34,866 bases of DNA from a virus: IMG/VR virus record IMGVR_UViG_3300046009_011339, positions 1 to 34,866 of that record. The stretch is one strand, 5' to 3'. A program made the translations under genes and the position numbers. Positions 1,270 through 34,866 of this stretch are shown in pieces. The notes beneath the pieces were generated by a model. It did no database searches and had not been told where the DNA came from. It saw nothing but the letters and a program-made list of their open reading frames with translations. Every line of letters starts with the position of its first letter. The stretch's first letter is position 1.

Positions 1270-1485
1270 TTAGATGGTAAAGGCAATACCACCCGTGCGA
1301 CCACGCTTGAAGACGATGTTCGCACCGAAGTGAGCAACGAGCATCTTGCGGAGGTCGATGGACTTCATCTTGAACTCCTTCGACAGATGCTTGACGGTGA
1401 GGCGCTCACCATTCTTGGAACGAGCAACGAGAGCGTTGAAGTCGATCTTGGACGAGTTAGCAGTCGAGAGCATAGTGGTAGTCAT
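1270..1485 (-). CDS. Small basic protein, unknown
   Basis: 71 residues from an ATG at 1485; the upstream AAGAAAG is a weak ribosome site. I do not recognise a family. The C-terminal two thirds are basic, with alternating charged and hydrophobic residues (GERLTVKHLSKEF, then LRKMLVAHFG, then a GRTGG turn), which could form a small helix-turn-helix or winged-helix DNA-binding fold; this is inference. It follows the AAA+ ATPase gene on the same strand after about 100 bases and shares its GC-rich, C-ending codon use, so the two probably belong to one module. The opposite-strand frame over the same bases (1264-1503) looks like a shadow. Confidence 0.6.
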   Translation of the reverse strand: MTTTMLSTANSSKIDFNALVARSKNGERLTVKHLSKEFKMKSIDLRKMLVAHFGANIVFKRGRTGGIAFTI

Positions 1486-1589
1486 CTTTGGTTTCTTTCT
1501 TGAACTTGGTGATGATTTTGTTTAAGAACTGGTTAGCGAGGTTGACTGTGATTGGATTGCTGTAGATGTTGTTTGTCGAGATGTAGGAC

Positions 1590-2786
1590 TCAAAACGGAA
1601 CTTCGTCGTTCTGCGGATCCTCCTTCTTGACTTCAGCAGTCGCAGCAGGAGGCAGCGCCTCTGCGTCGATCTTGTTGTAGAACGAGATGAACGCGGTCTG
1701 CGTATCCTTGTCGAAGCGAGCGAGAGTCATGCTCAACGCCTTCTGCTTGCAACCGAAGATCGCATACGCCTTGCAGATGTTGATGAGGCGACGAGTCGTG
1801 ATGACATCGCTGAACGATCCATCGTTGAACCCGATGCGAATGGCGTCTGCCCACTTCGCAAGGCAGTCAGCGAAGTTCTCGTCCACCTTGCCGAAGGACT
1901 TCATTCGCTTGAGCAGAATGCGCTTCTCGACTGCCTTCGGCGCGTAGTCAACCTCGAACCAAAAGTCGAAGCGGTCGAGCATTGCCTCGTTCATCACGCG
2001 AGTACCGACGAAGCGACCATCATCCGAACCCTTGCCCTTCGTGTTGCAAGTCGCAACGATGTTGAAGCGCAGAGAGTTGGGAATCTTCTCAATGATGCGG
2101 TCGATGAACTTGCCCTTGCCTTCGAGCGGAGACTGAAGGCACATCGTCTTGGCAGTACCGCAGTCCATCTCGTCAAGGAGAAGAACAGCACCACGCTTGA
2201 GTGCGACGATCACAGGACCATCCTGCCACTCCATCGTGGAGTTGCCGTCACGGTTGACGAGTCGCCAAGTACCGATGAGCGAATCCTCGTCGGTCATCTC
2301 AGTGAAGTTGACGCGCAGACACTCGCGCTTCAACTTCGCGCAAATCTGCTCAATCATCTCAGTCTTACCCGTACCAGTATTGCCAGTGAGAACGATGGGT
2401 GCGAACACACCGCTCTCAATGATCTTCTTCACATCCTCGAAGTGACCGAACGGAACATAGTCAGGGTTCACATCGGGAATGAGAGAAGTACGAGTGCCAT
2501 CAGACGACGCGAGTGCGTATGCTGCGACACGATCAGGTGCGGGAGTGGAAACAGTAGTGCGATTGGTATTGCTCATGTTCTTGTTCTGCTTTGCGATAGC
2601 AATGTCGATGTGGAACATTCCACGACCAGCACTGCGTGACTTGTCCTGAACGAACCAGGCGGGAGGGTACTTGAGTCCAATGCTATTCGCTGCCTCGACG
2701 CATTGAGCGCGAGTCACAACATTGGAACCGTTTGCGAGAGACTTGACTGCGGTGAGGAACTGCTGCTTGTTGGCGATCTTCGGCAT
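1590..2786 (-). CDS. cobS: MoxR/CobS-like AAA+ ATPase
   Basis: 398-residue AAA+ ATPase. Visible: Walker A GNTGTGKT at residues 135-142, Walker B VLLLDEMD at 201-208, a sensor-like CNTKG, an arginine-finger-like MLDRFDF and a sensor-2-like TTRRLI. This is the MoxR/CobS clade, whose members remodel partner complexes and usually work with a VWA-domain protein. Such a partner is encoded divergently at 2959. Many marine T4-like phages carry a gene annotated cobS; real cobalt chelation is unproven and no other cobalamin genes are visible. The N-terminal 60 residues may be a DNA- or partner-binding domain and the C-terminal tail is acidic. The gene is GC-rich compared with the rest of the window. 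The start has a sigma70-like promoter just upstream and no Shine-Dalgarno site. Confidence 0.88.
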   Translation of the reverse strand: MPKIANKQQFLTAVKSLANGSNVVTRAQCVEAANSIGLKYPPAWFVQDKSRSAGRGMFHIDIAIAKQNKNMSNTNRTTVSTPAPDRVAAYALASSDGTRTSLIPDVNPDYVPFGHFEDVKKIIESGVFAPIVLTGNTGTGKTEMIEQICAKLKRECLRVNFTEMTDEDSLIGTWRLVNRDGNSTMEWQDGPVIVALKRGAVLLLDEMDCGTAKTMCLQSPLEGKGKFIDRIIEKIPNSLRFNIVATCNTKGKGSDDGRFVGTRVMNEAMLDRFDFWFEVDYAPKAVEKRILLKRMKSFGKVDENFADCLAKWADAIRIGFNDGSFSDVITTRRLINICKAYAIFGCKQKALSMTLARFDKDTQTAFISFYNKIDAEALPPAATAEVKKEDPQNDEVPF

Positions 2787-2795
2787 AGTTCATAT

Positions 2796-2823
2796 AATAT
2801 ACCACAAAATGCCTACGAGTCAA
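2796..2823 (-). promoter_or_regulatory. Sigma70-like promoter for AAA+ gene
   Basis: Read on the minus strand: TTGACT (2823-2818), 16-base spacer ending in TTGTGG, TATATT (2801-2796). The ATG follows after 9 bases, so the mRNA would have a leader of about two or three bases. Confidence 0.7.
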
Positions 2824-2867
2824 TATCTTTGAACAATAATCGTACCATTTTGTTGTTATCGGACGCG

Positions 2868-2887
2868 GTTGATAGTATTTATCGGAC
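2868..2887 (+). repeat. GTTGATAGTAT element next to TTATCGGACC
   Basis: GTTGATAGTAT at 2868-2878 sits between two TTATCGGAC copies (2855 and 2879) in the divergent promoter region. The same words recur after the cobT-like gene: GGTCCGATAA (inverse of TTATCGGACC) directly followed by GTTGATAGTAT at 5481-5501, and GTTGATAGTA again at 5545-5554. Possible operator or protein-binding sites flanking the module. Confidence 0.45.
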
Positions 2888-2923
2888 CCTGGTTATCACA
2901 CCACAAAAATCGGCATTTTATGC

Positions 2924-2951
2924 TTGACAAGTGATGGATTTGTGGTATATT
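2924..2951 (+). promoter_or_regulatory. Sigma70-like promoter for CobT-like gene, leaderless
   Basis: TTGACA (2924-2929), 16-base spacer ending in TTTGTGG, TATATT (2946-2951). The ATG at 2959 follows after 7 bases, where transcription should begin. No Shine-Dalgarno site is present. Confidence 0.75.
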
Positions 2952-2958
2952 ACTTATT

Positions 2959-5370
2959 ATGACTCACTCTACCAAGAACAGCAAGTCCATTCTCGCCAAG
3001 GCTCTCGCGCAGGAGAACATCAAGGTGATTCACAATCCTGCGCTTGATACCGCAATGTTTGATGTGGTCAACCGCACACTCATGCTTCCCGTGTGGGAGA
3101 ATGTTTCGTCGGAGGTCTACGATCTTCTCGTCGGTCACGAAGTTGGTCACGCGCTGTTCACTCCTGACATTGATGCGGGTAAGGCAGCAGACTGCACCGA
3201 TGGCCCGTGGACTTCTGTTGCCCAAGACATTGGTGGCAATGTTCACGCTCCCTATGTGCAGGGACTCATGAACATCATCGAAGATGTTCGCATCGAGCGC
3301 AAGGTCAAGGAGAAGTACCCTGGTCTTCGTCGCGACTTCTCCATCGGATATCGTGAGATGTTCGACAATGACTTCTTCGGTACGAAGGACAAGGATGTTT
3401 CCAAGATGTCTTTCGGTGATCGTCTCAATCTCCACTTCAAGGTTGGTGTTCACCTTGCTATTCCTTTCACCGCAGAGGAGCAGGAGATCGTTGATCGCGT
3501 TGAGAAGTGTGATTCGTTCGATGACACTTGCAATCTGACTCGCGATGTCTTCTCGTTCATCGGTGGTACTCGTCAGCACATTCCCATGCCGAAGCAGAAG
3601 CAGGATGGTGCTGGCGCGGGAATGAATGGCAAGCAGGGTCAGGATTCGTCGCAGGGTCAGGGTGTTTCGCAGCAGGGTAATCAGAAGCAGGACGGAAACG
3701 GTACTGCCTCTGCCACTAGCAGCGGAAATCAGGGAACTCCTGGCCAGGGTCAGTCGAGTGGCAATGATCCCAAGAACCCTCGCAACAATGACAGCAATGG
3801 TTCTGCTCCCTACGGTGCGGGAACTGGTCAAACTTTCGGTGACCTCTCGACGCAGAAGAACTTTGACTCCAACAGTCAGCGAATGGTGAACAAGCGCGTT
3901 GGTTCCACGAACTACTACGAACTGCCTGTTCCGATCACGAAGAACATCATCGTTCCCTACACGAAGGTGAACTCGTACCTGACGAACTACTTCGCGAACT
4001 ACACGACTCGCTATAGCAGTGCGCGTGATGCGAAGAAGATCATGGCGAACATTGATGAGAAGTATTCGCGACTCATCGGCACGACTCGTCCTCTGATCGG
4101 TCAACTCGTTCAGCAGTTTGAGATGAAGAAGGCTGCCGACGAGCAGAAGCGTACTACTGTTTCTCGCAGTGGTCGTCTTGACACGGATCGTCTGTGTCTG
4201 CACAAGATCACCGACGATATCTTCATGAACTACGCGACGATTGCCAGCGGCAAGAATCATGGCATGGTCATGGTGATTGACTGGTCGAGTTCGATGTCGA
4301 TGGTGACTGAGGATGTTCTCACGCAAGTCGTGATGCTGTCTCAGTTCTGCAAGCGAATGGGCATTCCGTTCGATGTCTACCTGTTCACCAGTCAGTATTC
4401 GGTTCTCAAGATTGTCGAGAAGGGGTCATACGATTCGCAAATGGATGCGATTCCTAATCAGTGGGACTCGCAGGGTTCCATGACTGCGTACAGCAAGCAC
4501 AAGAGCGGCGGTGACTACGAGCGTTCGTCAGAGGCGTTTGCTCTGATTCATGTTCTGTCATCAGAGATGAAGAGTCTTGAGTTCACTCAGGCACTCAAGA
4601 ATGTCTTCACTCTTGGTCAGTTCGTGACTCGTCCCAGTGATATTCGTAGTGCGAAGGACAAGAACGGATATACGGATTTCCTGCACGATTCCCTGTATGT
4701 TCCCGTTGGATTCAATCAGGGAAACACTCCCCTTGATTCCACCGTGGTTGCGATGATGGACATTGTTCCCAAGTTCCAAGCAAAGCACAAGGTTCAGATC
4801 GTGAACACGATCTTCCTCACCGATGGTGATACTGGTCACAGTGTGATTCACACTCGCAGTTACAACAAGGAGAAGATCTATGTGAACTGCCCGTTCAACA
4901 AGAAGCAGTACGAAGTGACTGATTTCCCGACGAGCACCGATGCTCTTCTTCACATCTTTGCTGATGTGACGGGAAGCAACACCATCGGGTTCTTCCTCTG
5001 TGGCAAGCATGGGCATTGTCGTTACACCGATCCCACTGCTGACCGCAAGGAAGAGTACAAGCGCATGATGGAGAAGGGTTACATCGAAGCATCGAAGGTT
5101 TGCAAGCAAAAGGTGTACAATTACGACAAGGGAATCTACGAGGAGTCTGCCGATGCCATCAATCACGGGTATGATCGTCTGTTCGTTCTTCCCGCGAATG
5201 GGAATGTGTTGGACACCGATGAGGTGGATGATGCGCTGGAACTTCTTCCCGACAACGCTACCTTCACTCGCGTTCGCAACACCTTCTTCAAGGCAGTCAG
5301 TCAGCGCGCTAACTCGCGCGGATTCATCAACCGATTCGCGGATGTGATTGCTCAACCCGTCAAGCGTTGA
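2959..5370 (+). CDS. cobT: CobT-like VWA protein with HEVGH motif
   Basis: 803 residues. N-terminal region carries GHEVGHALF (H60, E61, H64), an HExxH zinc-metallopeptidase signature. A Gln/Gly/Ser-rich linker spans about residues 210-300. The C-terminal half is a von Willebrand A domain: MVMVIDWSSSMS near 436-447 gives the DxSxS metal-ion-dependent adhesion site, and FLTDGDTG near 619 gives the later MIDAS aspartate. Architecture (metallopeptidase-like region, low-complexity linker, VWA) matches CobT-like partners of MoxR/CobS ATPases, and the ATPase gene is divergent next door. The pair may be an ATP-driven remodelling or processing machine; its target is unknown. The gene is GC-rich with C/G-ending codons, unlike neighbours at 5561 onward, suggesting recent transfer or selection for strong expression in a GC-rich host. 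A strong terminator follows. Confidence 0.85.
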   Translation: MTHSTKNSKSILAKALAQENIKVIHNPALDTAMFDVVNRTLMLPVWENVSSEVYDLLVGHEVGHALFTPDIDAGKAADCTDGPWTSVAQDIGGNVHAPYVQGLMNIIEDVRIERKVKEKYPGLRRDFSIGYREMFDNDFFGTKDKDVSKMSFGDRLNLHFKVGVHLAIPFTAEEQEIVDRVEKCDSFDDTCNLTRDVFSFIGGTRQHIPMPKQKQDGAGAGMNGKQGQDSSQGQGVSQQGNQKQDGNGTASATSSGNQGTPGQGQSSGNDPKNPRNNDSNGSAPYGAGTGQTFGDLSTQKNFDSNSQRMVNKRVGSTNYYELPVPITKNIIVPYTKVNSYLTNYFANYTTRYSSARDAKKIMANIDEKYSRLIGTTRPLIGQLVQQFEMKKAADEQKRTTVSRSGRLDTDRLCLHKITDDIFMNYATIASGKNHGMVMVIDWSSSMSMVTEDVLTQVVMLSQFCKRMGIPFDVYLFTSQYSVLKIVEKGSYDSQMDAIPNQWDSQGSMTAYSKHKSGGDYERSSEAFALIHVLSSEMKSLEFTQALKNVFTLGQFVTRPSDIRSAKDKNGYTDFLHDSLYVPVGFNQGNTPLDSTVVAMMDIVPKFQAKHKVQIVNTIFLTDGDTGHSVIHTRSYNKEKIYVNCPFNKKQYEVTDFPTSTDALLHIFADVTGSNTIGFFLCGKHGHCRYTDPTADRKEEYKRMMEKGYIEASKVCKQKVYNYDKGIYEESADAINHGYDRLFVLPANGNVLDTDEVDDALELLPDNATFTRVRNTFFKAVSQRANSRGFINRFADVIAQPVKR

Positions 5371-17236: not shown

Positions 17237-17884
17237 ATGAAAAATCTAAACGAATACAGTTCATCTTACCCAACTAGCATCGGAAATAGTCAATCGCAGG
17301 AATATCCTGGTGTATTTTCACCATTCGATGCTGAAAAGGTACAAGGGCAAAATCGCCTAAACCCACTAGATCCAGAGGGTCTTCACAGATTAAATGCATT
17401 CCTTAAGCATTTCTTCAGAAGAACATCTTTAAATCCACAACACGATTTACACCAACTAAAGGTTCGTTTAAATCACTTAAACTATGATTTTGATGTTGCT
17501 CCAGATGCCGCAAAGGAATCAGACTTCAACGTTGAGGTGTCTAGAGGTCAAGTGTTTGGAACAACTCCAACTCACGACCTTTCAACTGGTTTCTATACTG
17601 GTAATGATCTACCAAAGTTCAATTTAAACTTTAAGGTCAACAAAACAAGTGATGGATATAAAATTGATGCAGTAATGACTCCAAAGGGAGAGGTAACTGA
17701 GTCAATGATGAAGAAGATTAAGAGAAACAAGAGAATCAAAACTATTAAGGAAATGGTTTCACCAATAAGTGAACAGGAAGAAATTCGTCAAGCACATATT
17801 GGTACTGATATAACAGGTGCAAAAGAGTCAGAAACGATTAAAAGTCGTAAAAGAGAAGATAGACAGTTAAAGAGAGTAAGATAA
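17237..17884 (+). CDS. Unknown basic late protein
   Basis: 215 residues, strong ribosome site TTAGGAG seven bases before the ATG. The N-terminus MKNLNEYSS contains L-N-E followed by Y. The first half is polar with a helical LHRLNAFLKHFFRR segment; the middle looks beta-rich (KFNLNFKVNKTSDGYKIDAVMTPKGE); the C-terminal 70 residues are strongly basic and carry PISE-Q. No family recognised. It follows the multidomain basic protein by 17 bases and probably shares its transcript. Confidence 0.75.
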   Translation: MKNLNEYSSSYPTSIGNSQSQEYPGVFSPFDAEKVQGQNRLNPLDPEGLHRLNAFLKHFFRRTSLNPQHDLHQLKVRLNHLNYDFDVAPDAAKESDFNVEVSRGQVFGTTPTHDLSTGFYTGNDLPKFNLNFKVNKTSDGYKIDAVMTPKGEVTESMMKKIKRNKRIKTIKEMVSPISEQEEIRQAHIGTDITGAKESETIKSRKREDRQLKRVR

Positions 17885-17900
17885 ACAAACCCTTTATATC

Positions 17901-18278
17901 ATGAAAGACAAACTCTGTCCAAATAATTTTGTAATGTATGCTATGAAAATGTATAGCAATCCATTATGTTCTGGGATTGACGAATTTAAAGAAGATATCT
18001 GTAGAGTAAAATACGTCAAAAGACTTCTTCTTAAATATAAAAAATATGGTGATTTAAAAGAAAGATTAGTTTTAAATCACCTTATTATTTTACAAAATTT
18101 GTTTGGTGCAGAGGCATGTACGAGAATCTTATTTTATAAACTACCGAAAGAGTTGCATTCTTATCTAAAAACCTTTCTGCAATATCTACAGTATCTTCCA
18201 AAGTCAATACCAGAAGTCGATCTAGAATCTATAAATTGTGACCACAGAATAGAAAAAATATTACAGAGAGTAAAATGA
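17901..18278 (+). CDS. Conserved T4-like phage protein of unknown function (DUF7207-like)
   Basis: 125 residues, all-helical, with a pattern I know from marine T4-like phages: NFVMYAMKMYSNP, then KYVKRLLLKYKKYGDLKERLVLNHLIILQNLFG, then LFYKLPKELHSYLKTFLQYL. Function is unknown; it is usually near structural genes. Its ATG lacks a ribosome site. The stop overlaps the next start as ATGA, so the next gene is translationally coupled. Confidence 0.8.
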   Translation: MKDKLCPNNFVMYAMKMYSNPLCSGIDEFKEDICRVKYVKRLLLKYKKYGDLKERLVLNHLIILQNLFGAEACTRILFYKLPKELHSYLKTFLQYLQYLPKSIPEVDLESINCDHRIEKILQRVK

Positions 18279-19648
18279 TTACAGTAACAGAACTTTTCAG
18301 TAGAATAAATTTAAACGAATCTATACAGGTAATCAAGCACCTTGAGCATCATGGTGAAAAACTATACACTGGTAACCCAAATGCAGCAATAGAGCATTTG
18401 AAAGCAACTGCTAACTTTCTAGCAGGAAGACCACAACCTGGACACAATTTATCATATAAGGTAGATGGAAGTGTATCAATTGTATTTGGTAGAAATGGTG
18501 GAAGACCATTCGTGAAATATAAGGGTGAAGGATCTCCACATCTCTATTCGGAACAAGAAATAGAACAAGAGACAAAAGAAAAACCATATCTTACACAACC
18601 ATTCATGGTTGGATTGAAGTCAGCAAAACACCCTTCAATTGGATCAAATACTGGTTATCAAGCAGATATTGCTCTAGAATCATCACCAACGACATTCAAG
18701 GGAAATCTAATATCATACATGAAACCAGCGAAATCAAAGAAGTATGCAGTTGCGGTACACACACAACTGAATACTGATACTGGTGAGAAAACTGGATCAA
18801 ATCCAGATGTGACATTCCTTGAGTCGAAAGAGGCACACTTTCCACATCTCTCCCTCAACAATCAGTCATTCGATACAACTCCAGAAGAGATGCAAAAACT
18901 CAATACGCATATATCAAATGCAAATACTCTTCTGAATGATAAAAAAGTAAAACAAATTGCAAAATCTATAGCAGAACACGTCGATCCAACAAACAAAACA
19001 GGTCATAGACATCTCATCTTCAAGCAATACACCAATGCAGTTCAAAGAGGAGAAGTGACAGAAAGATCTATTGGTTCTCTAAAGGATTGGTTAAAATCCA
19101 AAGCAGATAAGGCAAAGAGCAGCGCAGATAAACAAAGAATCATGGGACATCTAGAATTCGTAGATAAAGACCCAGCAGCACTTCATAATCTACTCAAAGC
19201 ACACGATCATGCTGATGCTGCAAGAAACATCATCGTAGACATTCTACACAGAAATAAAAGTCTACCAATGACTCCCGAAGGTGGTCATTCAAATGGTGAA
19301 GGATTTGTTTCTGAATTACCAGGTCATGGTCAAGTTAAATTTATACCACAATCATTCACTGCTGCAAATGTTGCACAGAAAGAAAAATTCAAAAAGGCAG
19401 CAAAAGAAATCAAAGAAGAGATGGCAGCTGGTGGTGGTGCAATTGCAGGAATAGGTGTTAACCCATCTGGAAAACCAGATTCATCAGAGGTTGCTGTTTC
19501 TAGAGCAGCACAAGCAAATTACACCGCTGCTAACATGGGAGGGTTTGAACCACTATATGGTAAGCAACCAGTGAATTCAAATCCCAGACGCAGAAGATTA
19601 GCGATGAGCATTCTCAGTAAAATGAATGTTGGTAGGGAATCATACTAA
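18275..19648 (+). CDS. DUF6267-like protein with KxDG nucleotidyltransferase-type motif
   Basis: 457 residues. Near the N-terminus YKVDGSVSIVFG (K62, D64, G65) followed by RPFVKYKG matches motif I (KxDG) and the next strand of DNA/RNA ligase-type nucleotidyltransferases, in which the Lys takes AMP. The surrounding pattern (helical EHLKATANFLAG before, GEGFVSELPGHGQVKF near 340) fits the phage family DUF6267. Other ligase motifs are not obvious, so activity is uncertain. The N-terminus SRINLNE-S has an L-N-E cut site at 13-15. The C-terminal 60 residues include an Ala/Gly-rich segment and a basic RRRRLAMSILSKM. It may be an internal head protein that modifies nucleic acid on entry, or an enzyme fold kept as structure. 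Confidence 0.75.
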   Translation: MITVTELFSRINLNESIQVIKHLEHHGEKLYTGNPNAAIEHLKATANFLAGRPQPGHNLSYKVDGSVSIVFGRNGGRPFVKYKGEGSPHLYSEQEIEQETKEKPYLTQPFMVGLKSAKHPSIGSNTGYQADIALESSPTTFKGNLISYMKPAKSKKYAVAVHTQLNTDTGEKTGSNPDVTFLESKEAHFPHLSLNNQSFDTTPEEMQKLNTHISNANTLLNDKKVKQIAKSIAEHVDPTNKTGHRHLIFKQYTNAVQRGEVTERSIGSLKDWLKSKADKAKSSADKQRIMGHLEFVDKDPAALHNLLKAHDHADAARNIIVDILHRNKSLPMTPEGGHSNGEGFVSELPGHGQVKFIPQSFTAANVAQKEKFKKAAKEIKEEMAAGGGAIAGIGVNPSGKPDSSEVAVSRAAQANYTAANMGGFEPLYGKQPVNSNPRRRRLAMSILSKMNVGRESY

Positions 19649-19863
19649 TGGCAAAAAACCATAAAAGAAAAACAAATAAAGAAGCAGAAGAATATTATTT
19701 CTGCACTCATGTCGATACTGCTGGGTATAGGTATGAACTCCTTTTGACTAAAAAGGAATTTGATGCAGCAACGAAAAGAGCAGAAAAAAACCCAGAAGAT
19801 GTACCCACCCATTATATTGTTCTACAGGGGTATAGAAAAGATCAGGGTTGTAAAGATTCATAA
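19648..19863 (+). CDS. Small unknown protein
   Basis: 71 residues, coupled to the previous gene by TAATG. Basic N-terminus, then a possible beta-hairpin (YYFCTHVDTAGYRYELLLTKKEF) and a helix (DAATKRAEKNPED). No family recognised. Its last 22 bases overlap the end of the convergent RuvC-like gene, so no terminator separates the two transcripts. Confidence 0.7.
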   Translation: MAKNHKRKTNKEAEEYYFCTHVDTAGYRYELLLTKKEFDAATKRAEKNPEDVPTHYIVLQGYRKDQGCKDS

Positions 19864-20393
19864 AGTGCTTTGCAAATAGCATATGCATCTATGATGTCAG
19901 TGACTGGACTTCCGAGAAGTGTTTTGTTTGGTGTGATTATTTCTTGCAACTCGAATCCAGTTTCCTGAACAAAACTTTTATACATTAACTCTTTATCAGC
20001 ATTTCCTTTGGTAGTGAACAGTTTTTTAACTTTTGTTGGTTCAATGATATCTACAGGTATGCCTAACTGGTAAAGTTTATATTTTAATATTCCTGTGTTT
20101 TCTGCAATATGAAAGACACGACCCGTGGCATTGTACGCATATCCCTCTAAACCTATTCTTTCTGATCCAATTGTGACACGAACAACCCAATCTGATATGG
20201 AATCATATCTTTCACAATCTTGGTCATACGTCAAGAACATCTCCCCGTGTATGTTATTCATGAATGTATTTGCGTATTTCTTTGTGTCTGTCAAAAAATA
20301 AAAGTTACAATTCTTAAAATTGAACTCTTTTTTGGTGTCAAATACACAAACCGCTGGTCCGTTTAAGGAATAATCTATGGCAGAAATAATCAT
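19842..20393 (-). CDS. RuvC-like Holliday junction resolvase
   Basis: 183 residues. The RNase H-fold acidic residues are in the RuvC order and spacing: AIDYSLNG with D7, IGLEGYAY with E83, and SPVTDIIDAYAICKA with D166 and D169. A basic KVKKLFTTKG region precedes the last motif. RuvC-type enzymes cut four-way junctions; in a T4-like phage this would replace endonuclease VII in clearing branched DNA before packaging. It is transcribed against its neighbours, diverging from the late gene at 20426 with 32 bases between and converging with the gene at 19648. Confidence 0.85.
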   Translation of the reverse strand: MIISAIDYSLNGPAVCVFDTKKEFNFKNCNFYFLTDTKKYANTFMNNIHGEMFLTYDQDCERYDSISDWVVRVTIGSERIGLEGYAYNATGRVFHIAENTGILKYKLYQLGIPVDIIEPTKVKKLFTTKGNADKELMYKSFVQETGFELQEIITPNKTLLGSPVTDIIDAYAICKALYESLQP

Positions 20394-21274: not shown

Positions 21275-22096
21275 ATGAAAGACTCAGATAAAAGAATTTA
21301 CGATTCAATTACCAAAGTATTAATGAATGAGAACTTTGGTATGGGTGGCGGTATGCCTCCCATGGGCGGCATGGGTGGACCACAAATGGGTGGTAGAAGA
21401 CCACAGATGCCACAAAGAAGAAGATCCCAAATGGGTATGATGGGTCAACCACCAATGCCTCCAATGGGTGGAGAAATGGGTCAAGACGAAATGGGTATGA
21501 TGGGTGGTATGGGAGAAATGCCTCCAATGGGCGGTGGAATGGGTGGTGGAATGCCTCCAATGGGTGGTGGAATGGGTGGTGGAATGCCCCCACAACAACA
21601 AGAACCCCCAGCAGCAATGGGTCAAAACTTCAGATTTAATCCAAACCAACAAAAGAAAAAATCAACACCAACAATGTTTGGTGATCTCTCTGATCCCGCA
21701 GACGATGCAAGAAATCAAGCACTTGCACAAAGTGCAATGATGCAACAACAAGGTCAACAACAAGGTGGACCAATGGGTGGTGGAATGGGTGGACCAATGG
21801 GTGGTGGTATGCCTCCAATGGAAGGCGAAGAGGATATGGATATGATGGGTGGTGGTATGCCCCCAATGGGTGGACCAATGGGTGGTGGAATGGGTGGACC
21901 AATGGGTGGTGGAATGGGTGGACCAATGGGTGGTGGTATGCCTCCTATGGGTGGTATGGGAAGACCTCCAATGGGTGGACCACAAATGGGTGGACCACAA
22001 ATGGGTGGCATGGGAAGACCTCCTATGCCCCAGAGAAGAAGACCACCTATGGGTGGCATGGGAAGACCCCCAATGCCTCCAATGAGAGGATACTGA
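21275..22096 (+). CDS. Gly/Met/Pro-rich repeat protein
   Basis: 273 residues with AAAAGGAAACAACA before the ATG. After a short helical start (DSITKVLMNE-N) nearly the whole protein is built from MGG, GGGM, PPMGG and GPMGG units, broken only by a 60-residue Gln/Asn-rich patch near 110-170. No folded domain is expected. Met- and Gly-rich low complexity of this kind could be sticky, phase-separating or metal-binding; none is proven. Three nearly perfect 24-base tandem units at 21871-21942 suggest growth by slippage. It lies in a late unit between two other late proteins. Reverse-strand frames over it are artefacts of the repeats. Confidence 0.8.
   Translation: MKDSDKRIYDSITKVLMNENFGMGGGMPPMGGMGGPQMGGRRPQMPQRRRSQMGMMGQPPMPPMGGEMGQDEMGMMGGMGEMPPMGGGMGGGMPPMGGGMGGGMPPQQQEPPAAMGQNFRFNPNQQKKKSTPTMFGDLSDPADDARNQALAQSAMMQQQGQQQGGPMGGGMGGPMGGGMPPMEGEEDMDMMGGGMPPMGGPMGGGMGGPMGGGMGGPMGGGMPPMGGMGRPPMGGPQMGGPQMGGMGRPPMPQRRRPPMGGMGRPPMPPMRGY
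21871..21942 (+). repeat. Three tandem 24-bp units
   Basis: Unit starts TGGACCAATGGGTGGTGG; copies at 21871, 21895 and 21919, the last with two changes near its end. Each encodes eight residues of the Gly/Met repeat. A related partial array lies at 21766-21815. Confidence 0.85.
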
Positions 22097-23609: not shown

Positions 23610-24380
23610 TTAACTCCAGTTTGACACAAGTATTGCTAGATCTCCAGCACCCACCACACCATCTCCATCTAAATCATATGGATTATTCTTGAAGGATAAT
23701 GCTCCCCAATTTCCCAGTAATGCTGCCATATCTTCAGATCCAACTACACCATCTCCGTTAAAATCTCCAGCGGGTGCGGGAGTTCCAAAGATGACTGCAT
23801 CGGTTATTGTACCAAGAACAGATAATCCTGGAATATTGCTTCCATAGATTACTGTTTTGTTTTCGATAACAGTATTGTATTCTGGAAGAACCTTAACTTC
23901 GGTTTGAACAAATGATTCTAAAACTTTAAATTGTAAACGAACAATTTGAATGGGTTGTTGATTCACTATAAACACATATCCAAGAGCACCATATCCGTAG
24001 TAGAGTCCATTACCATCTGCGGGTGGAATTGCTTCATTGATCTGTGTGTAGTCAGTACCAATACCAGCACAATTTTGATAACCAGCGGGGCATGGCATAC
24101 CACTTGGGGGAACCCAAATATTTGGATGCGAACCAACGTGACTTATACCAAGAAACTCAAGTTTTGTTTGATCCCAACCAAAGATTATATCAGATACAAT
24201 ATATCTTTGTGGTTCTGTTGCTGCTGCCATTAAAATTGGAACTTCAAATGTTTCTCCAACAGAAACTGTTGTTTCTGGTGATTCTAGAATCAGATTAATC
24301 TTTGCATCAGGATTAGTCTGACCAAAACTTGAACTAACCATCAATAAAAAAGATGCTGCCGTTGCTATAATACTTTTCAT
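23610..24380 (-). CDS. Secreted cohesin/dockerin-like protein
   Basis: 256 residues. A signal peptide is clear (MKSIIATAASFLLMVSSSFGQ, cut before or after Gln21), so the protein is exported. Residues 25-180 form a beta-rich cohesin-like domain (TTVSVGETFEVPILM, then FGWDQTKLEFLGISHV). The end carries two EF-hand-like calcium loops typical of type I dockerins, DFNGDGVVGSEDMAALLGNWG and DLDGDGVVGAGDLAILVSNWS. This C-terminal pattern is very common in planctomycete secreted proteins and rare in phages. A perfect late promoter and a TAGGAG site precede it, so it is made with virion proteins. Possible roles: virion surface decoration, binding host surface dockerin/cohesin partners, or changing the host surface. 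Codon use matches the phage, so it is not a very recent arrival. Confidence 0.85.
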   Translation of the reverse strand: MKSIIATAASFLLMVSSSFGQTNPDAKINLILESPETTVSVGETFEVPILMAAATEPQRYIVSDIIFGWDQTKLEFLGISHVGSHPNIWVPPSGMPCPAGYQNCAGIGTDYTQINEAIPPADGNGLYYGYGALGYVFIVNQQPIQIVRLQFKVLESFVQTEVKVLPEYNTVIENKTVIYGSNIPGLSVLGTITDAVIFGTPAPAGDFNGDGVVGSEDMAALLGNWGALSFKNNPYDLDGDGVVGAGDLAILVSNWS

Positions 24381-24397: not shown

Positions 24398-24405
24398 TAT
24401 TTATA
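24398..24405 (-). promoter_or_regulatory. T4-type late promoter for dockerin-like gene
   Basis: Minus strand TATAAATA, then ACTGG-TAGGAG-ACATCAT and the ATG at 24380. It directly follows the terminator of the minus-strand replication operon. Confidence 0.82.
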
Positions 24406-31069: not shown

Positions 31070-32215
31070 TCAACCGAATAAATTTTCTAGTGTATTTTTC
31101 TTCTCTGTTGACCAACCAATAGTATCTAGGATGGCAGTCAATGGATCAATAAATGATTTCTCAAACTGAGTTTTAAAATCAATATATCCTTCAAGTTTAA
31201 ATTCCTTTGGAAGAACATTAGGAAATGAAATTACTTGATCTTCTCCTATTGATCCACCAAGAGGATTTGGTTTCTTGAGCATAAGAAATTTAATTTTGTC
31301 ACCTTCTCGGATATTGCGATATTTCTTGCTGATCTTAAATTGATTGAGATAATGATTATAGATCAAAGCACCTTTGACAGCGATTGGTGTTGATTTTTTA
31401 TAAATCGATTCCCGATCCGCATATTTGTCCATGCCATTGACGCTTCGGGGAAATGCAATATCCTCTGGGGGCAAGGAATAAAATTCCTGACGACATTTCT
31501 CAACAAAGTCAACCATATCGCTTTCGGTCCCATTCATTGTAATATTGATCGCAGTCTTCAAATGCTTGCGAACAAATTCGGGAGTCGATGAGCGAGTTGT
31601 TTCAATGCCCATGATCTTGAGTTTGGGTTCTGCATATCGTACACCTTCAGAATCCCACACATTCAACATGTATCTTTTCTTCGCAGTCCAAATTCCCTTG
31701 TCAGCAATAACCTCTCGACCCATCTGCATTTTATTTTCATAGGCATTTGTAAGATCGGCAAGTTCCTTAAACTTCTTGTCGATGAACGGAAGAAGCAATT
31801 CTTCTGCTGACTTATCAAGAAAGTTCACTACATTCTTGGTATCGGGAGGAGGGACAGGTTTGCCATCAACCATTCCCTTGTTTGGGAATGCTTTCTCCAC
31901 CAACACATCCAATCGAAGATAGACCGAATCTGTATCTGAGGAAATTACATAATCAACATCTTCTGTCTTTACTACTTTATTCAGATACTTATTCAATTCC
32001 TGACCAATCCATTGAATAGACAACTGACCCGACAGAGTGATTGCCTCTGCGAGTTCAGTTGAATAATATCTGAAATATTGGTTGCCTATTGCACCGTAAG
32101 CAGAGTTCAATTGAATCTTACGAACCAACTGAAAGTTATGATATTTGGAAATATCAAGTTCTGCTTGTCTTTTAAGTTTCAACAATTCATCATTAGAAAG
32201 AGATTTCAAATCCAT
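31070..32215 (-). CDS. 43B: DNA polymerase family B, C-terminal part (gp43B)
   Basis: 381 residues. It opens in the fingers domain and carries motif B ([14 protein letters not shown]33 to N45) and motif C (SSDTDSVY, D94 and D96), the latter giving two of the catalytic metal ligands, followed by thumb sequences ([14 protein letters not shown]). Motif A and the exonuclease are in the separate gene at 34320. The two halves join end to end at the tip of the fingers without apparent loss, so they probably assemble into one active enzyme. Split gp43 genes are known in some T4-related phages. It has its own sigma70-like promoter 6 bases before the ATG and no ribosome site, and heads the replication operon. 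Confidence 0.93.
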
Positions 32216-32612: not shown

Positions 32613-32620
32613 TATTTATA
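32613..32620 (-). promoter_or_regulatory. T4-type late promoter for DUF5856 gene
   Basis: Minus strand TATAAATA, overlapping the stop of the upstream gene; AGAGGG and the ATG at 32594 follow. Confidence 0.8.
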
Positions 32621-32861
32621 AGTTTTGTTTCCATGACCCATCTAAAATAATACCACACTCTGGAACATCCTCGGGTGTTGCCTTTTGGACAGAATAGCAG
32701 TGAGATATTTTCATTCTCTTGCGAATTTCGTTTAGACTTTCTGCTTCCGTTACCGCATTTGATTTCTTCTTAAAAACAAGAAGACCCTTGCGGGGTTCTC
32801 CCGAAGAGTCTACTAGGTTATCTGACACAAATTGGTTTGTTTCAGTAATGATTCCGTACAT
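32616..32861 (-). CDS. Small unknown protein coupled to PEP-CTERM gene
   Basis: 81 residues; its ATG overlaps the PEP-CTERM stop as TAATG, with AAGGCGG upstream. Soluble alpha/beta composition (RKGLLVFKKKSNAVTEAESLNEIRKRMKI). The pattern suggests a small one-domain protein, but I recognise no family. Codon use is phage-like, unlike the GC-rich gene it is coupled to. Confidence 0.72.
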   Translation of the reverse strand: MYGIITETNQFVSDNLVDSSGEPRKGLLVFKKKSNAVTEAESLNEIRKRMKISHCYSVQKATPEDVPECGIILDGSWKQNL

Positions 32862-33493
32862 TATCGTCGCCGCCTTCGGATCACACCAGCAACCGCAAGC
32901 AGAGCAAGTGCCGATGGTGTGGGAACGATCTCGTAAGAGAAATTGTCGAGGATGAAATGGTTGATGGGCGAGTTAGGAGAAAACCCTGAGATCTTCAAGG
33001 TATCAATGGCTACTTCATCGAACTCTAGCCTTGTTCTCACCATAGAAGGGATCGACAGAGTGCGGCTCCATACAACCGAACCATCCCGATATCCTGTGAG
33101 AGTCAAGTCAAGGTCAATCCATGCAGCGGTGATGTCCGCACCGACAAACCTCCAAAGTTCGTCTCGACTGATTCTAAACCCATTGGCAGCGTCCGACCCA
33201 TAGGGGGTGAATAGCGCACGGTCACCGACGAGCCCATCGTCGTAGCCGCCGAAGTCCACATCCTTGATGTCGTAGTATGCCCATCGTCCTGAGAATGGTT
33301 GCCATTCGGGATTCGATGCAGGAACGACGAGATTGCTCAAGAACTGAAATCCTTGGTAATCTCCGATAGGACTTGCAACCACGAACTCAACGTTTGAGGA
33401 AGGTACTGTAGGCTCAGGCAGATCCTCAAATGTGAGTGTGAGATTTGCGTGTGCTGCCGTTGCGATAAATGCTGTTGCGATTAGTGTCTTCAT
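32861..33493 (-). CDS. Secreted PEP-CTERM-like protein
   Basis: 210 residues from ATG 33493. The longer frame to 33589 is rejected because it reads through tRNA-Leu. Signal peptide MKTLIATAFIATAAHA, cut before Asn17. The body is beta-rich (LTFEDLPEPTV, FQFLSN, ITAAWIDLDLTLTGYRDG, INHFILDNFSYEI), as in PEP-CTERM proteins of planctomycetes and other exosortase-bearing bacteria. The end VPTPSALALLAVAGVIRRRRR has the three-part sorting signal: PxP-like motif, hydrophobic helix, Arg cluster. In a host with exosortase it would be cut and moved to the surface. The gene is clearly richer in GC than its neighbours, pointing to acquisition from a GC-rich host. Its role in infection is unknown; surface alteration or superinfection exclusion are guesses. 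Confidence 0.87.
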   Translation of the reverse strand: MKTLIATAFIATAAHANLTLTFEDLPEPTVPSSNVEFVVASPIGDYQGFQFLSNLVVPASNPEWQPFSGRWAYYDIKDVDFGGYDDGLVGDRALFTPYGSDAANGFRISRDELWRFVGADITAAWIDLDLTLTGYRDGSVVWSRTLSIPSMVRTRLEFDEVAIDTLKISGFSPNSPINHFILDNFSYEIVPTPSALALLAVAGVIRRRRR

Positions 33494-33513
33494 TGTGTCT
33501 TCTAGTTTCATAA

Positions 33514-33595
33514 TACCAAAGGTGGGAATCGAACCCACATGCCATAAGGCAATGGATTTTGAATCCACCGCGTCTGCCAGTTCCGCCACATTGGT
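33514..33595 (-). tRNA. tRNA-Leu (anticodon CAA)
   Basis: 82 nt. Acceptor ACCAATG/CTTTGGT with one T-T mismatch, D-arm TGGCGGAACTGGCAGACGCG typical of Leu, anticodon loop TTCAAAA (CAA), long variable arm TGCC-TTAT-GGCA, T-arm GTGGGTTCGATTCCCAC. CCA is not encoded. Reads UUG codons. Confidence 0.93.
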
Positions 33596-33599
33596 GTAA

Positions 33600-33683
33600 T
33601 GGGAATGGTGGGAATCGAACCCACACGATCAATTGATCGACAGATTTTAAGTCTGTTGCGTCTGCCTGTTCCGCCACAATCCC
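33600..33683 (-). tRNA. tRNA-Leu (anticodon UAA)
   Basis: 84 nt. Acceptor GGGATTG/CATTCCC with one T-T mismatch, Leu-type D-arm, anticodon loop CTTAAAA (TAA), long variable arm CGATCAATTGATCG, T-arm as in its neighbour. CCA is not encoded. Four bases from tRNA-Leu(CAA). Reads UUA. Confidence 0.93.
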
Positions 33684-33686
33684 GAA

Positions 33687-33757
33687 CTACCCCGCCTAGA
33701 TTCGAACTAGGAAAAAGAGAACCAAAGTCTCCTGTGATACCGTTTCACCACGGGATA
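33687..33757 (-). tRNA. tRNA-Gln (anticodon UUG)
   Basis: 71 nt. Acceptor TATCCCG/CGGGGTA, anticodon stem GGAGA/TCTCT with loop CTTTGGT (TTG), T-arm CCTAG-TTCGAAT-CTAGG. CCA is not encoded. It starts directly after the methyltransferase stop and reads CAA, an A-ending codon favoured by this phage. Confidence 0.92.
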
Positions 33758-34297
33758 TTAAAACACATTACTTGCGAGTGCGTACATTGCGATACCACTC
33801 GCGGTTCCTACATTCAGACTCCTGACACTTCCATACTGTTTAATGTACAATACTTGGTCGCAGATGTCAAGGATTTCTGCGGGTAGACCAACTTGTTCCT
33901 GACCAAACGCTAGAACATAATGTGTATTTGAGTCCCATACAAACTCGTCAATTGCCGTAGCACCTGGCACATTATCTATGCCAATTACTTTGACTGTTCC
34001 GTAAGATCCACGAATTATCTTGATCTGATCTTCCAGTTCAACAAAGGTCTTGGCGTGCTTGAAATGTGTGTAATGATGTGTGCCTACAGTGCCACGGCGA
34101 TCATACTGCTTTGCTCCATAAAGGATTACTTGCTTAGAAAGAAACGCATTCGCGTTACGAATAACTGTAGCAATATTGAAGTCATTATAAAGATTGCTAC
34201 AAACAACGGTAAAATTATTCCGCTTTGCATCAAGGTCTGCGATGATCGCTTCATGCTTCCAATAATGGTAGTGGTCAATCACGTTCCTCGTTTCCAT
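33758..34297 (-). CDS. SpoU/TrmH-family RNA 2'-O-methyltransferase
   Basis: 179 residues. The three SPOUT trefoil-knot motifs are present: YNDFNIATVIRNANAF (35-52, with the catalytic-type Arg and Asn), LAFGQEQVGLPAEIL (near 129-143) and YGSVRSLNVGTASGIAMY (near 155-172), the SAM-binding knot. The family methylates ribose 2'-OH in tRNA or rRNA. The gene is followed at once by three tRNAs, two of them Leu(CAA) and Leu(UAA), exactly the pair whose wobble base is methylated by E. coli TrmL; TrmH-type Gm18 activity is an equal alternative. It has its own leaderless-type promoter. Confidence 0.88.
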   Translation of the reverse strand: METRNVIDHYHYWKHEAIIADLDAKRNNFTVVCSNLYNDFNIATVIRNANAFLSKQVILYGAKQYDRRGTVGTHHYTHFKHAKTFVELEDQIKIIRGSYGTVKVIGIDNVPGATAIDEFVWDSNTHYVLAFGQEQVGLPAEILDICDQVLYIKQYGSVRSLNVGTASGIAMYALASNVF

Positions 34298-34303
34298 AGG
34301 TAT

Positions 34304-34331
34304 AGTATACCATTAAACTTTACTTTGTCAA
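34304..34331 (-). promoter_or_regulatory. Sigma70-like promoter for methyltransferase/tRNA unit, leaderless
   Basis: Minus strand TTGACA (34331-34326), 16-base spacer ending TTAATGG, TATACT (34309-34304), 6 bases, ATG at 34297. It overlaps the 3' end of gp43A. Confidence 0.78.
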
Positions 34332-34866
34332 GCCCCTTCGCTTCATTTCTGCGTTGATATCTTCCAGATTCTTTTTGGCATCAATCATTTTGTTCTTGAA
34401 CATTTTACGATCTTTATACATTTGATCCATAAGTTCTGGCAAGAATCCACGCACATCTTTTCTATAGGTAGTTCCATTAGCAGCAGTTGATACATTTCTC
34501 TTCTTGTTATCTTCAAGAACACCCATTGTCACTGAACCTCTTTTTAGTACGCCTTCGGGTGATACCACACCACGAACACTTTCCTTTGTGATTGTTTCTG
34601 GTGAGATATTGTACTGCATGATGAGATGCGGATACAGTGAATTCAAGTCAAAGGATACTACCCACTTGTGCATACCTACTTGTGGTTCTTTTACATAACC
34701 ACCAGCATATTGCTCGTCTTTTCTTCCCTTTTTCTTTGGTGGAATTGCAATTCCTTTGTTGCTAAGTGTGTTGTAAATGATTACATCCCATGTACGAACT
34801 TGGGAGAAGACATCCTGATAATTTACTCCTGCTGAATATGCCAGAGCAATTGCCAGTTCAATTAAT
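34320..34866 (-). CDS. 43A: DNA polymerase family B, N-terminal part (gp43A), partial
   Basis: The frame is open to the window edge, so the exonuclease domain and start lie outside. Visible: RTWDVIIYNTLSNKGIAIPPKK, GGYVKEPQVG, and motif A SFDLNSLYPHLI whose Asp binds catalytic metal, then NISPETI and the first fingers helices (MYKDRKMFKNKMIDAKK). It stops after RRGLTK, in the middle of the fingers, and the chain resumes in the gene at 31070-32215. The internal ATG at 34673 is not the start. Confidence 0.93.
   Translation of the reverse strand, partial: LIELAIALAYSAGVNYQDVFSQVRTWDVIIYNTLSNKGIAIPPKKKGRKDEQYAGGYVKEPQVGMHKWVVSFDLNSLYPHLIMQYNISPETITKESVRGVVSPEGVLKRGSVTMGVLEDNKKRNVSTAANGTTYRKDVRGFLPELMDQMYKDRKMFKNKMIDAKKNLEDINAEMKRRGLTK

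Follow-up and report, generated by a model that had tools for sequence, protein, structure and literature searches.

Exosortase sorting is a house system of bacteria, and most of its substrates are of unknown function. To our knowledge, the phage proteins described for superinfection exclusion and surface conversion are lipoproteins, membrane proteins or glycosyltransferases, none of them with exosortase sorting, and our literature search found neither an exosortase-sorted phage exclusion protein nor a phage-encoded PEP-CTERM protein. Substrates of exosortase (EpsH), represented by the models TIGR02595 and PF07589, combine a signal peptide and a body without internal membrane spans with a C-terminal proline motif, a hydrophobic helix and an Arg cluster; the founding description of the class gives the proline motif as a near-invariant Pro-Glu-Pro (Haft et al. 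2006, PMC1569441). The phage gene reported here encodes a protein that shares this architecture and has relatives in exosortase-bearing genomes, but differs in having P-T-P or P-A-P for P-E-P, in scoring below the curated cut-offs, in being encoded by a phage and in having a body that is shuffled between constant ends. We think the best explanation of the whole, with a probability of about 0.7, is that it is a cargo gene of Phycisphaerales ancestry whose product would be sorted by exosortase and displayed by the infected cell.

The window, by which we mean the whole stretch of 34,866 bases that was analysed, is an entire IMG/VR record and probably a fragment of a genome of T4-like type, with a split family-B DNA polymerase, a UvsX/RecA-like recombinase, a DnaB-like helicase and a primase. 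The two polymerase halves lie about 2.1 kb apart, and between them are a methyltransferase gene, tRNA genes, the surface-protein gene, an 81-aa ORF and a DUF5856 gene. The features of this segment, all on the minus strand, are as follows.

34320–34865, minus strand: DNA polymerase (split family-B), N-terminal half (phrog_262/phrog_2062), cut off by the contig edge
34304–34331, minus strand: sigma70-type promoter, TTGACA-16-TATACT, at -34 from the methyltransferase gene
33758–34297, minus strand: SpoU-family RNA 2'-O-methyltransferase (PF00588, E=4e-23), presumed first gene of the operon
33687–33757, minus strand: tRNA-Gln(ttg)
33600–33683, minus strand: tRNA-Leu(taa)
33514–33595, minus strand: tRNA-Leu(caa), directly upstream of the surface-protein gene
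32861–33493, minus strand: gene for a predicted exported, exosortase-type surface protein, 210 aa, body type A (from the ORF and its viral relatives)
33446–33501, minus strand: near-invariant 5' block, 8 nt before the ATG plus 48 nt of signal peptide, common to body types A and B
32927–33445, minus strand: exchangeable body, residues 17–189, predicted jelly-roll with a DUF4465/CBM-like fold (from comparison and a structure model)
32864–32926, minus strand: C-terminal sorting signal VPTPSALALLAVAGVIRRRRR, with P-T-P, hydrophobic helix and five Arg
32616–32861, minus strand: 81-aa ORF overlapping the stop of the surface-protein gene (TAATG); L023, a related contig, has the same downstream neighbour
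31070–32215, minus strand: DNA polymerase (split family-B), C-terminal half (phrog_262/phrog_1918)

The surface-protein ORF runs from ATG to TAA and encodes 210 aa, with the N-terminus MKTLIATAFIATAAHA|N and the C-terminus VPTPSALALLAVAGVIRRRRR. The original prediction described it as a signal peptide, a beta-rich body and an RRRRR ending, and the coordinates, the sequence and an AlphaFold2 model all agree with that description. The N-terminus reads as a signal peptide, MK followed by TLIATAFIATA and AHA|N, and is the second most hydrophobic region of the protein; the two hydrophobicity peaks are this N-terminal segment (around residue 4) and residues 187–205. The ORF is, on comparative grounds, genuine and neither a chance nor a spurious reading frame, because it is kept in independent viral contigs: the relative in contig L004 is 93% identical in amino acids, that in L005 66–68%, and those with the second body type about 36% in the body. 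L023 shares the downstream neighbours of the gene in the window. A false junction or chimeric assembly is ruled out by L023 and by three other IMG assemblies that carry the junction at 99.99–100% identity. An upstream GTG start at 33589 is rejected as well: it overlaps tRNA-Leu(caa), and conservation begins at the ATG at 33493.

The gene has a GC content of 51% against 39.6% for the window and 0.38–0.42 for its direct neighbours, and its GC3 is 0.51 compared with a mean of 0.31 (sd 0.13) over the other genes of the window. The proposal that it forms a GC-rich island thus stands with respect to its neighbours, but it is one of several GC-rich stretches and not unique in the window, because genes at 1270–5370 reach GC3 values of 0.63–0.71. 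These genes, which include a CobS/MoxR-like ATPase and a VWA-type protein, have a more foreign composition than that of the surface-protein gene.

The C-terminal tail consists of a hydrophobic helix (SALALLAVAGVI, modelled at residues 195–208) followed by RRRRR. A check against PEP-CTERM models, which had been put forward as a means of identifying the protein, came out negative: no PEP-CTERM model, TIGR02595 and PF07589 included, reaches its cut-off on the window protein. Among 11 phage members, seven are matched weakly by PF07589 (best E=0.0013) and seven by TIGR02595 at a level below cut-off (best E=0.043). The motif is P-T-P in the window and P-A-P in most relatives, with Glu absent. A degenerate DNA search for VP[AT]PSALALLA across 84,980 genomes gave 15 matches, nine of which are true C-terminal tails that continue into an Arg run; six of the nine come from bins whose titles name Phycisphaerales, Phycisphaerae or other Planctomycetota (for example VPAPSALALLAIAGVCRRRRR and VPAPSALALLAVAGLVRRRRH), and exosortase (PF09721) is present in all nine genomes. 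A census of 40 tails, taken from loci in these genomes and their relatives and partly chosen by that very tail, contains 33 P-A-P, three P-T-P and no P-E-P. These sequences indicate that P-A-P/P-T-P is the form of the tail that Phycisphaerales uses. Since the phage protein fails the letter of PEP-CTERM but has this form, we regard it as exosortase-substrate-like and not as a canonical PEP-CTERM protein. The designation as a full exosortase substrate is accordingly retained in part: the protein is phage-encoded, predicted to be exported, of exosortase type and of Planctomycetota ancestry, but it lacks both a PEP-CTERM model match above cut-off and the Glu of P-E-P.

It is improbable that the tail is a mere membrane anchor or belongs to another sorting class resembling MYXO-CTERM. 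MYXO-CTERM and similar models do score as well as those for PEP-CTERM, all below cut-off (13.5 of 20 bits and 10.9 of 15.85 bits for TIGR03901 and TIGR03382). However, MYXO-CTERM needs a conserved Cys and the tail of the window protein has none, and the same tail occurs on many proteins of the Phycisphaerales, an order in which 98% of the genomes encode PF09721.

That order was searched by way of G001, a genome titled Phycisphaerales that contains locus L037, and comprises 301 genomes. A profile of the phage family matches 205 of them, mostly through the tail, and none of 200 genomes of Pseudomonadota; full-length homologues were recovered with E-values as low as 1.4e-27. Of the 301 genomes, 294 (98%) encode exosortase, so that homologues in exosortase-bearing bacteria, whose absence would have told against the original prediction, are present throughout the order at full length and with the same tail; exosortase is thus established for the order of the relatives, to which the phage's own host is assigned indirectly. 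A close likeness is to P-A-P-tailed surface proteins of this order (for example loci L050 and L051 in genomes G270 and G264), which are homologous over their full length (E=1.4e-27) and share both the LTFENLP start of the body and a VPAPS...RRRR tail. They differ in that the signal-peptide DNA block of the phages (MKTLIATAFIATAAHA/G), which is almost fixed, is absent from the cellular relatives read. A peptide-pattern search of genome contigs found no close cellular relatives.

The tRNAs of the phage score best at 100, 96 and 94 bits against those of Phycisphaerales and at most 73 bits against those of 200 Pseudomonadota. The window also encodes a second exported, host-type protein (23610–24380, minus strand), which has a dockerin-like repeat at its C-terminus (DFNGDGVVGSEDMAALLGNWG). 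It has matches in 79 of 151 Phycisphaerales genomes, mostly through the dockerin end, the best being full-length homologues of 37–39% identity, and copies that are 69% identical occur in other phage contigs, including that of L024. The best DNA matches listed include no prophage copy and no clear CRISPR spacer match. Together, the profile, exosortase, tRNA and dockerin-protein matches make a strong but indirect case that the host is probably a member of the Planctomycetota, order Phycisphaerales, for which we know of hardly any cultivated phages. On these comparisons the protein is very probably an exosortase-type substrate of a Phycisphaerales phage, written in the dialect of its host.

In pattern scans covering 2.9 million viral contigs, the gene family turned up on about 20 of them. 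All 16 matches to the tail pattern belong to the family, one being a decayed remnant: at L073:120-320 the sorting tail is joined to one of the small ORFs of the neighbouring cassette family, as after a deletion. The parts of the gene are of known kinds, namely exosortase substrates and phage cargo genes; neither PHROGs nor 50,697 phage records nor the literature searched yielded a phage family of such substrates whose ends are constant and whose bodies are exchanged. No PHROG family matches the surface protein, and neither does any isolate phage in a tblastn search of those 50,697 records. Two body types are recognised, A (window, L004, L005) and B (L019–L028 and others), with 34–40% identity between the bodies and a split that has 100% bootstrap support. 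Many residues of the body are nevertheless invariant, including W71, Y73 and GDRALFTP.

The two types share their ends at the level of DNA. Where A and B encode the same amino acid, the codons are identical at 99% of positions in residues 1–15, 75% in the tail and 43% in the body. Searching with a 23-mer alone would bias the collection toward conserved signal DNA, but a protein-pattern scan that also used [VI]GDRALFT recovered 15 loci, and the exact 23-mer is present in 14 of them; we therefore set ascertainment bias aside as the source of the conservation. Exchange of the body is illustrated by two pairs of related phages that have the gene at the same locus, with flanks about 87–98% identical and body alleles at 36–38% amino acid identity. 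L005 and L024 are 94% identical over 1.6 kb downstream and 88% over a 400-bp upstream match that extends into the signal peptide, and despite these common flanks their bodies are 36% identical. The window and L023 are about 87% identical over 1.4 kb of downstream genes and 98% over a 50-bp 5' block, with bodies at 38%. Flanks thus pair the window with L023 and L005 with L024, whereas bodies pair the window with L005 (66%) and L023 with L024 (72%). In L020 and L028 the genes are 97–98% identical and the upstream flanks are unrelated; between L004 and the window, identity is 79% across the phage backbone and 94% in the surface-protein gene. From these mismatches between flank and body it follows that the body or the whole gene moves between phages, and the alignments indicate that in related phages one body takes the place of another while the signal-peptide end stays near-constant and the tail conserved.

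ORFs for HNH endonucleases lie near the gene in most of the related contigs (L004:2260-3066, L019:8161-8625, L023:4314-5009, L025:2708-3253 on the minus strand, and L028:10819-11061), with none in the window, and such neighbouring genes could drive the exchange. Small GC-rich ORFs with endings of the form ERDEARR...WDCYKEN/DYK are found upstream of the gene (L004:3394-3675, L019:8681-8971, L022 and others); this family has several copies per phage, and the upstream ORF often runs into the start of the surface-protein gene.

The AlphaFold2 model, built with 11 phage sequences, has a helix at residues 4–12, an all-beta body and a helix at 195–208, at moderate confidence (mean pLDDT 74.9, pTM 0.73). 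The body is predicted to be a jelly-roll. Its best match among solved folds is DUF4465 (BtuJ1/BtuJ2, 4jqr, 9hmu; Z 12.6, rmsd 3.0, 159 residues), a comparison that starts from a moderate-confidence model and in which other jelly-rolls, CBM families among them, score about 10. The DUF4465 proteins are cobalamin-binding, come from Bacteroides and differ from the phage protein in sequence, with 13–18% identity; the window protein has no Pfam match of any kind, and no DUF4465 match was found in its relatives. A sequence search of the PDB gave nothing significant, and Foldseek against viral predictions returned merely generic tail-fibre and CBM jelly-rolls at a TM of 0.5 or lower. A predicted fold in common with DUF4465 and CBMs does not in itself show a function.

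The position of the sigma70-type promoter is kept in the window, L004 (12/12), L023, L021 and L028, and it is this conservation that carries weight, since sigma70-type matches across the whole window are no commoner than in shuffles. Because the position is conserved in five contigs, it suggests that the gene is transcribed early by the host machinery. No T4-type late promoter was found for the surface-protein gene, although TATAAATA sites occur elsewhere in the window.

Taken together, we propose that the protein would be made early through host-type transcription, exported by Sec and held in the inner membrane by its tail, where the host exosortase would cut it at the P-T-P site; the processed protein would then pass to the outer surface or the extracellular matrix of the infected cell. 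There the jelly-roll, which resembles carbohydrate-binding modules and DUF4465, may bind or mask a surface ligand, and exchange of the body may follow changing receptors or rivals. The likeliest benefit would be superinfection exclusion or some other modification of the envelope or EPS. As a non-structural phage gene predicted to change the envelope, it resembles the superinfection-exclusion and surface-conversion proteins known as morons, and we put forward exclusion or masking as its function tentatively. A more speculative extension is that phages of Planctomycetota draw on a common pool of exosortase-sorted surface proteins in which the ends are constant and the ectodomain can be exchanged. 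The near-fixed signal-peptide DNA and the tail would then serve as recombination handles, letting the displayed domain be swapped and the sorting signals be retained, in a manner akin to antigenic variation that controls rival infection.

A protein exported and sorted in the same way might instead act on the extracellular matrix, loosening, coating or re-routing exopolysaccharide such that progeny disperse or adsorb better, or might scavenge a ligand for the infected cell. The predicted jelly-roll, with its CBM-like and B12-binding DUF4465-like fold, fits such a role, as do the dockerin-type exported protein of the same phages and the nucleotide-sugar epimerase genes of L022, and PEP-CTERM proteins are linked to exopolysaccharide and floc formation (PMC1569441; cited in PMC12642866). 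However, catalytic or ligand-binding residues are not assignable in the body, and the apparently early promoter suits takeover or exclusion better than release. Strong exchange of bodies is also more usual in receptor-interacting proteins, and we consider the matrix role possible but doubtful. It is unlikely that the gene is simply a passenger, a host gene acquired within a cargo segment prone to recombination (tRNAs, HNH endonucleases and small ORFs), which is often exchanged because of where it lies and which benefits the phage little. HNH endonuclease ORFs nearby in L004, L019, L023, L025 and L028, the small 'DEARR' ORF cassettes and GC-rich segments around the gene, and the decayed remnant in L073 are what a passenger would leave; yet the ORF is intact across types down to 34–38% body identity with signal and tail kept, about 20 contigs carry it amid a wide variety of flanks, and many body residues are invariant.

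If phages do repeatedly acquire, keep and reshuffle an exosortase substrate, this would mean that hijacking the pathway pays. The gene would also offer a sequence-level host marker for Phycisphaerales phages, and its product, being small and defined, could be used to test exosortase cleavage and a role in phage competition.

We note some further features of these phages. In L022, the region downstream of the surface-protein gene (17712–20229) contains genes for GDP-mannose dehydratase-like and fucose-synthase-like epimerases and a putative glycosyltransferase. The window encodes a 273-aa low-complexity protein (21275–22096, plus strand) with Met/Gly/Pro repeats (GGMGGPMGGGMPPMGG). A T4-late-type promoter, TATAAATA, is present at 24398–24405, just upstream of the dockerin-type gene. 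The window has five exact TATAAATA sites, a number near chance on a rough base-composition estimate, and all five lie just 5' of a same-strand gene start, an arrangement expected for 2% of placements.
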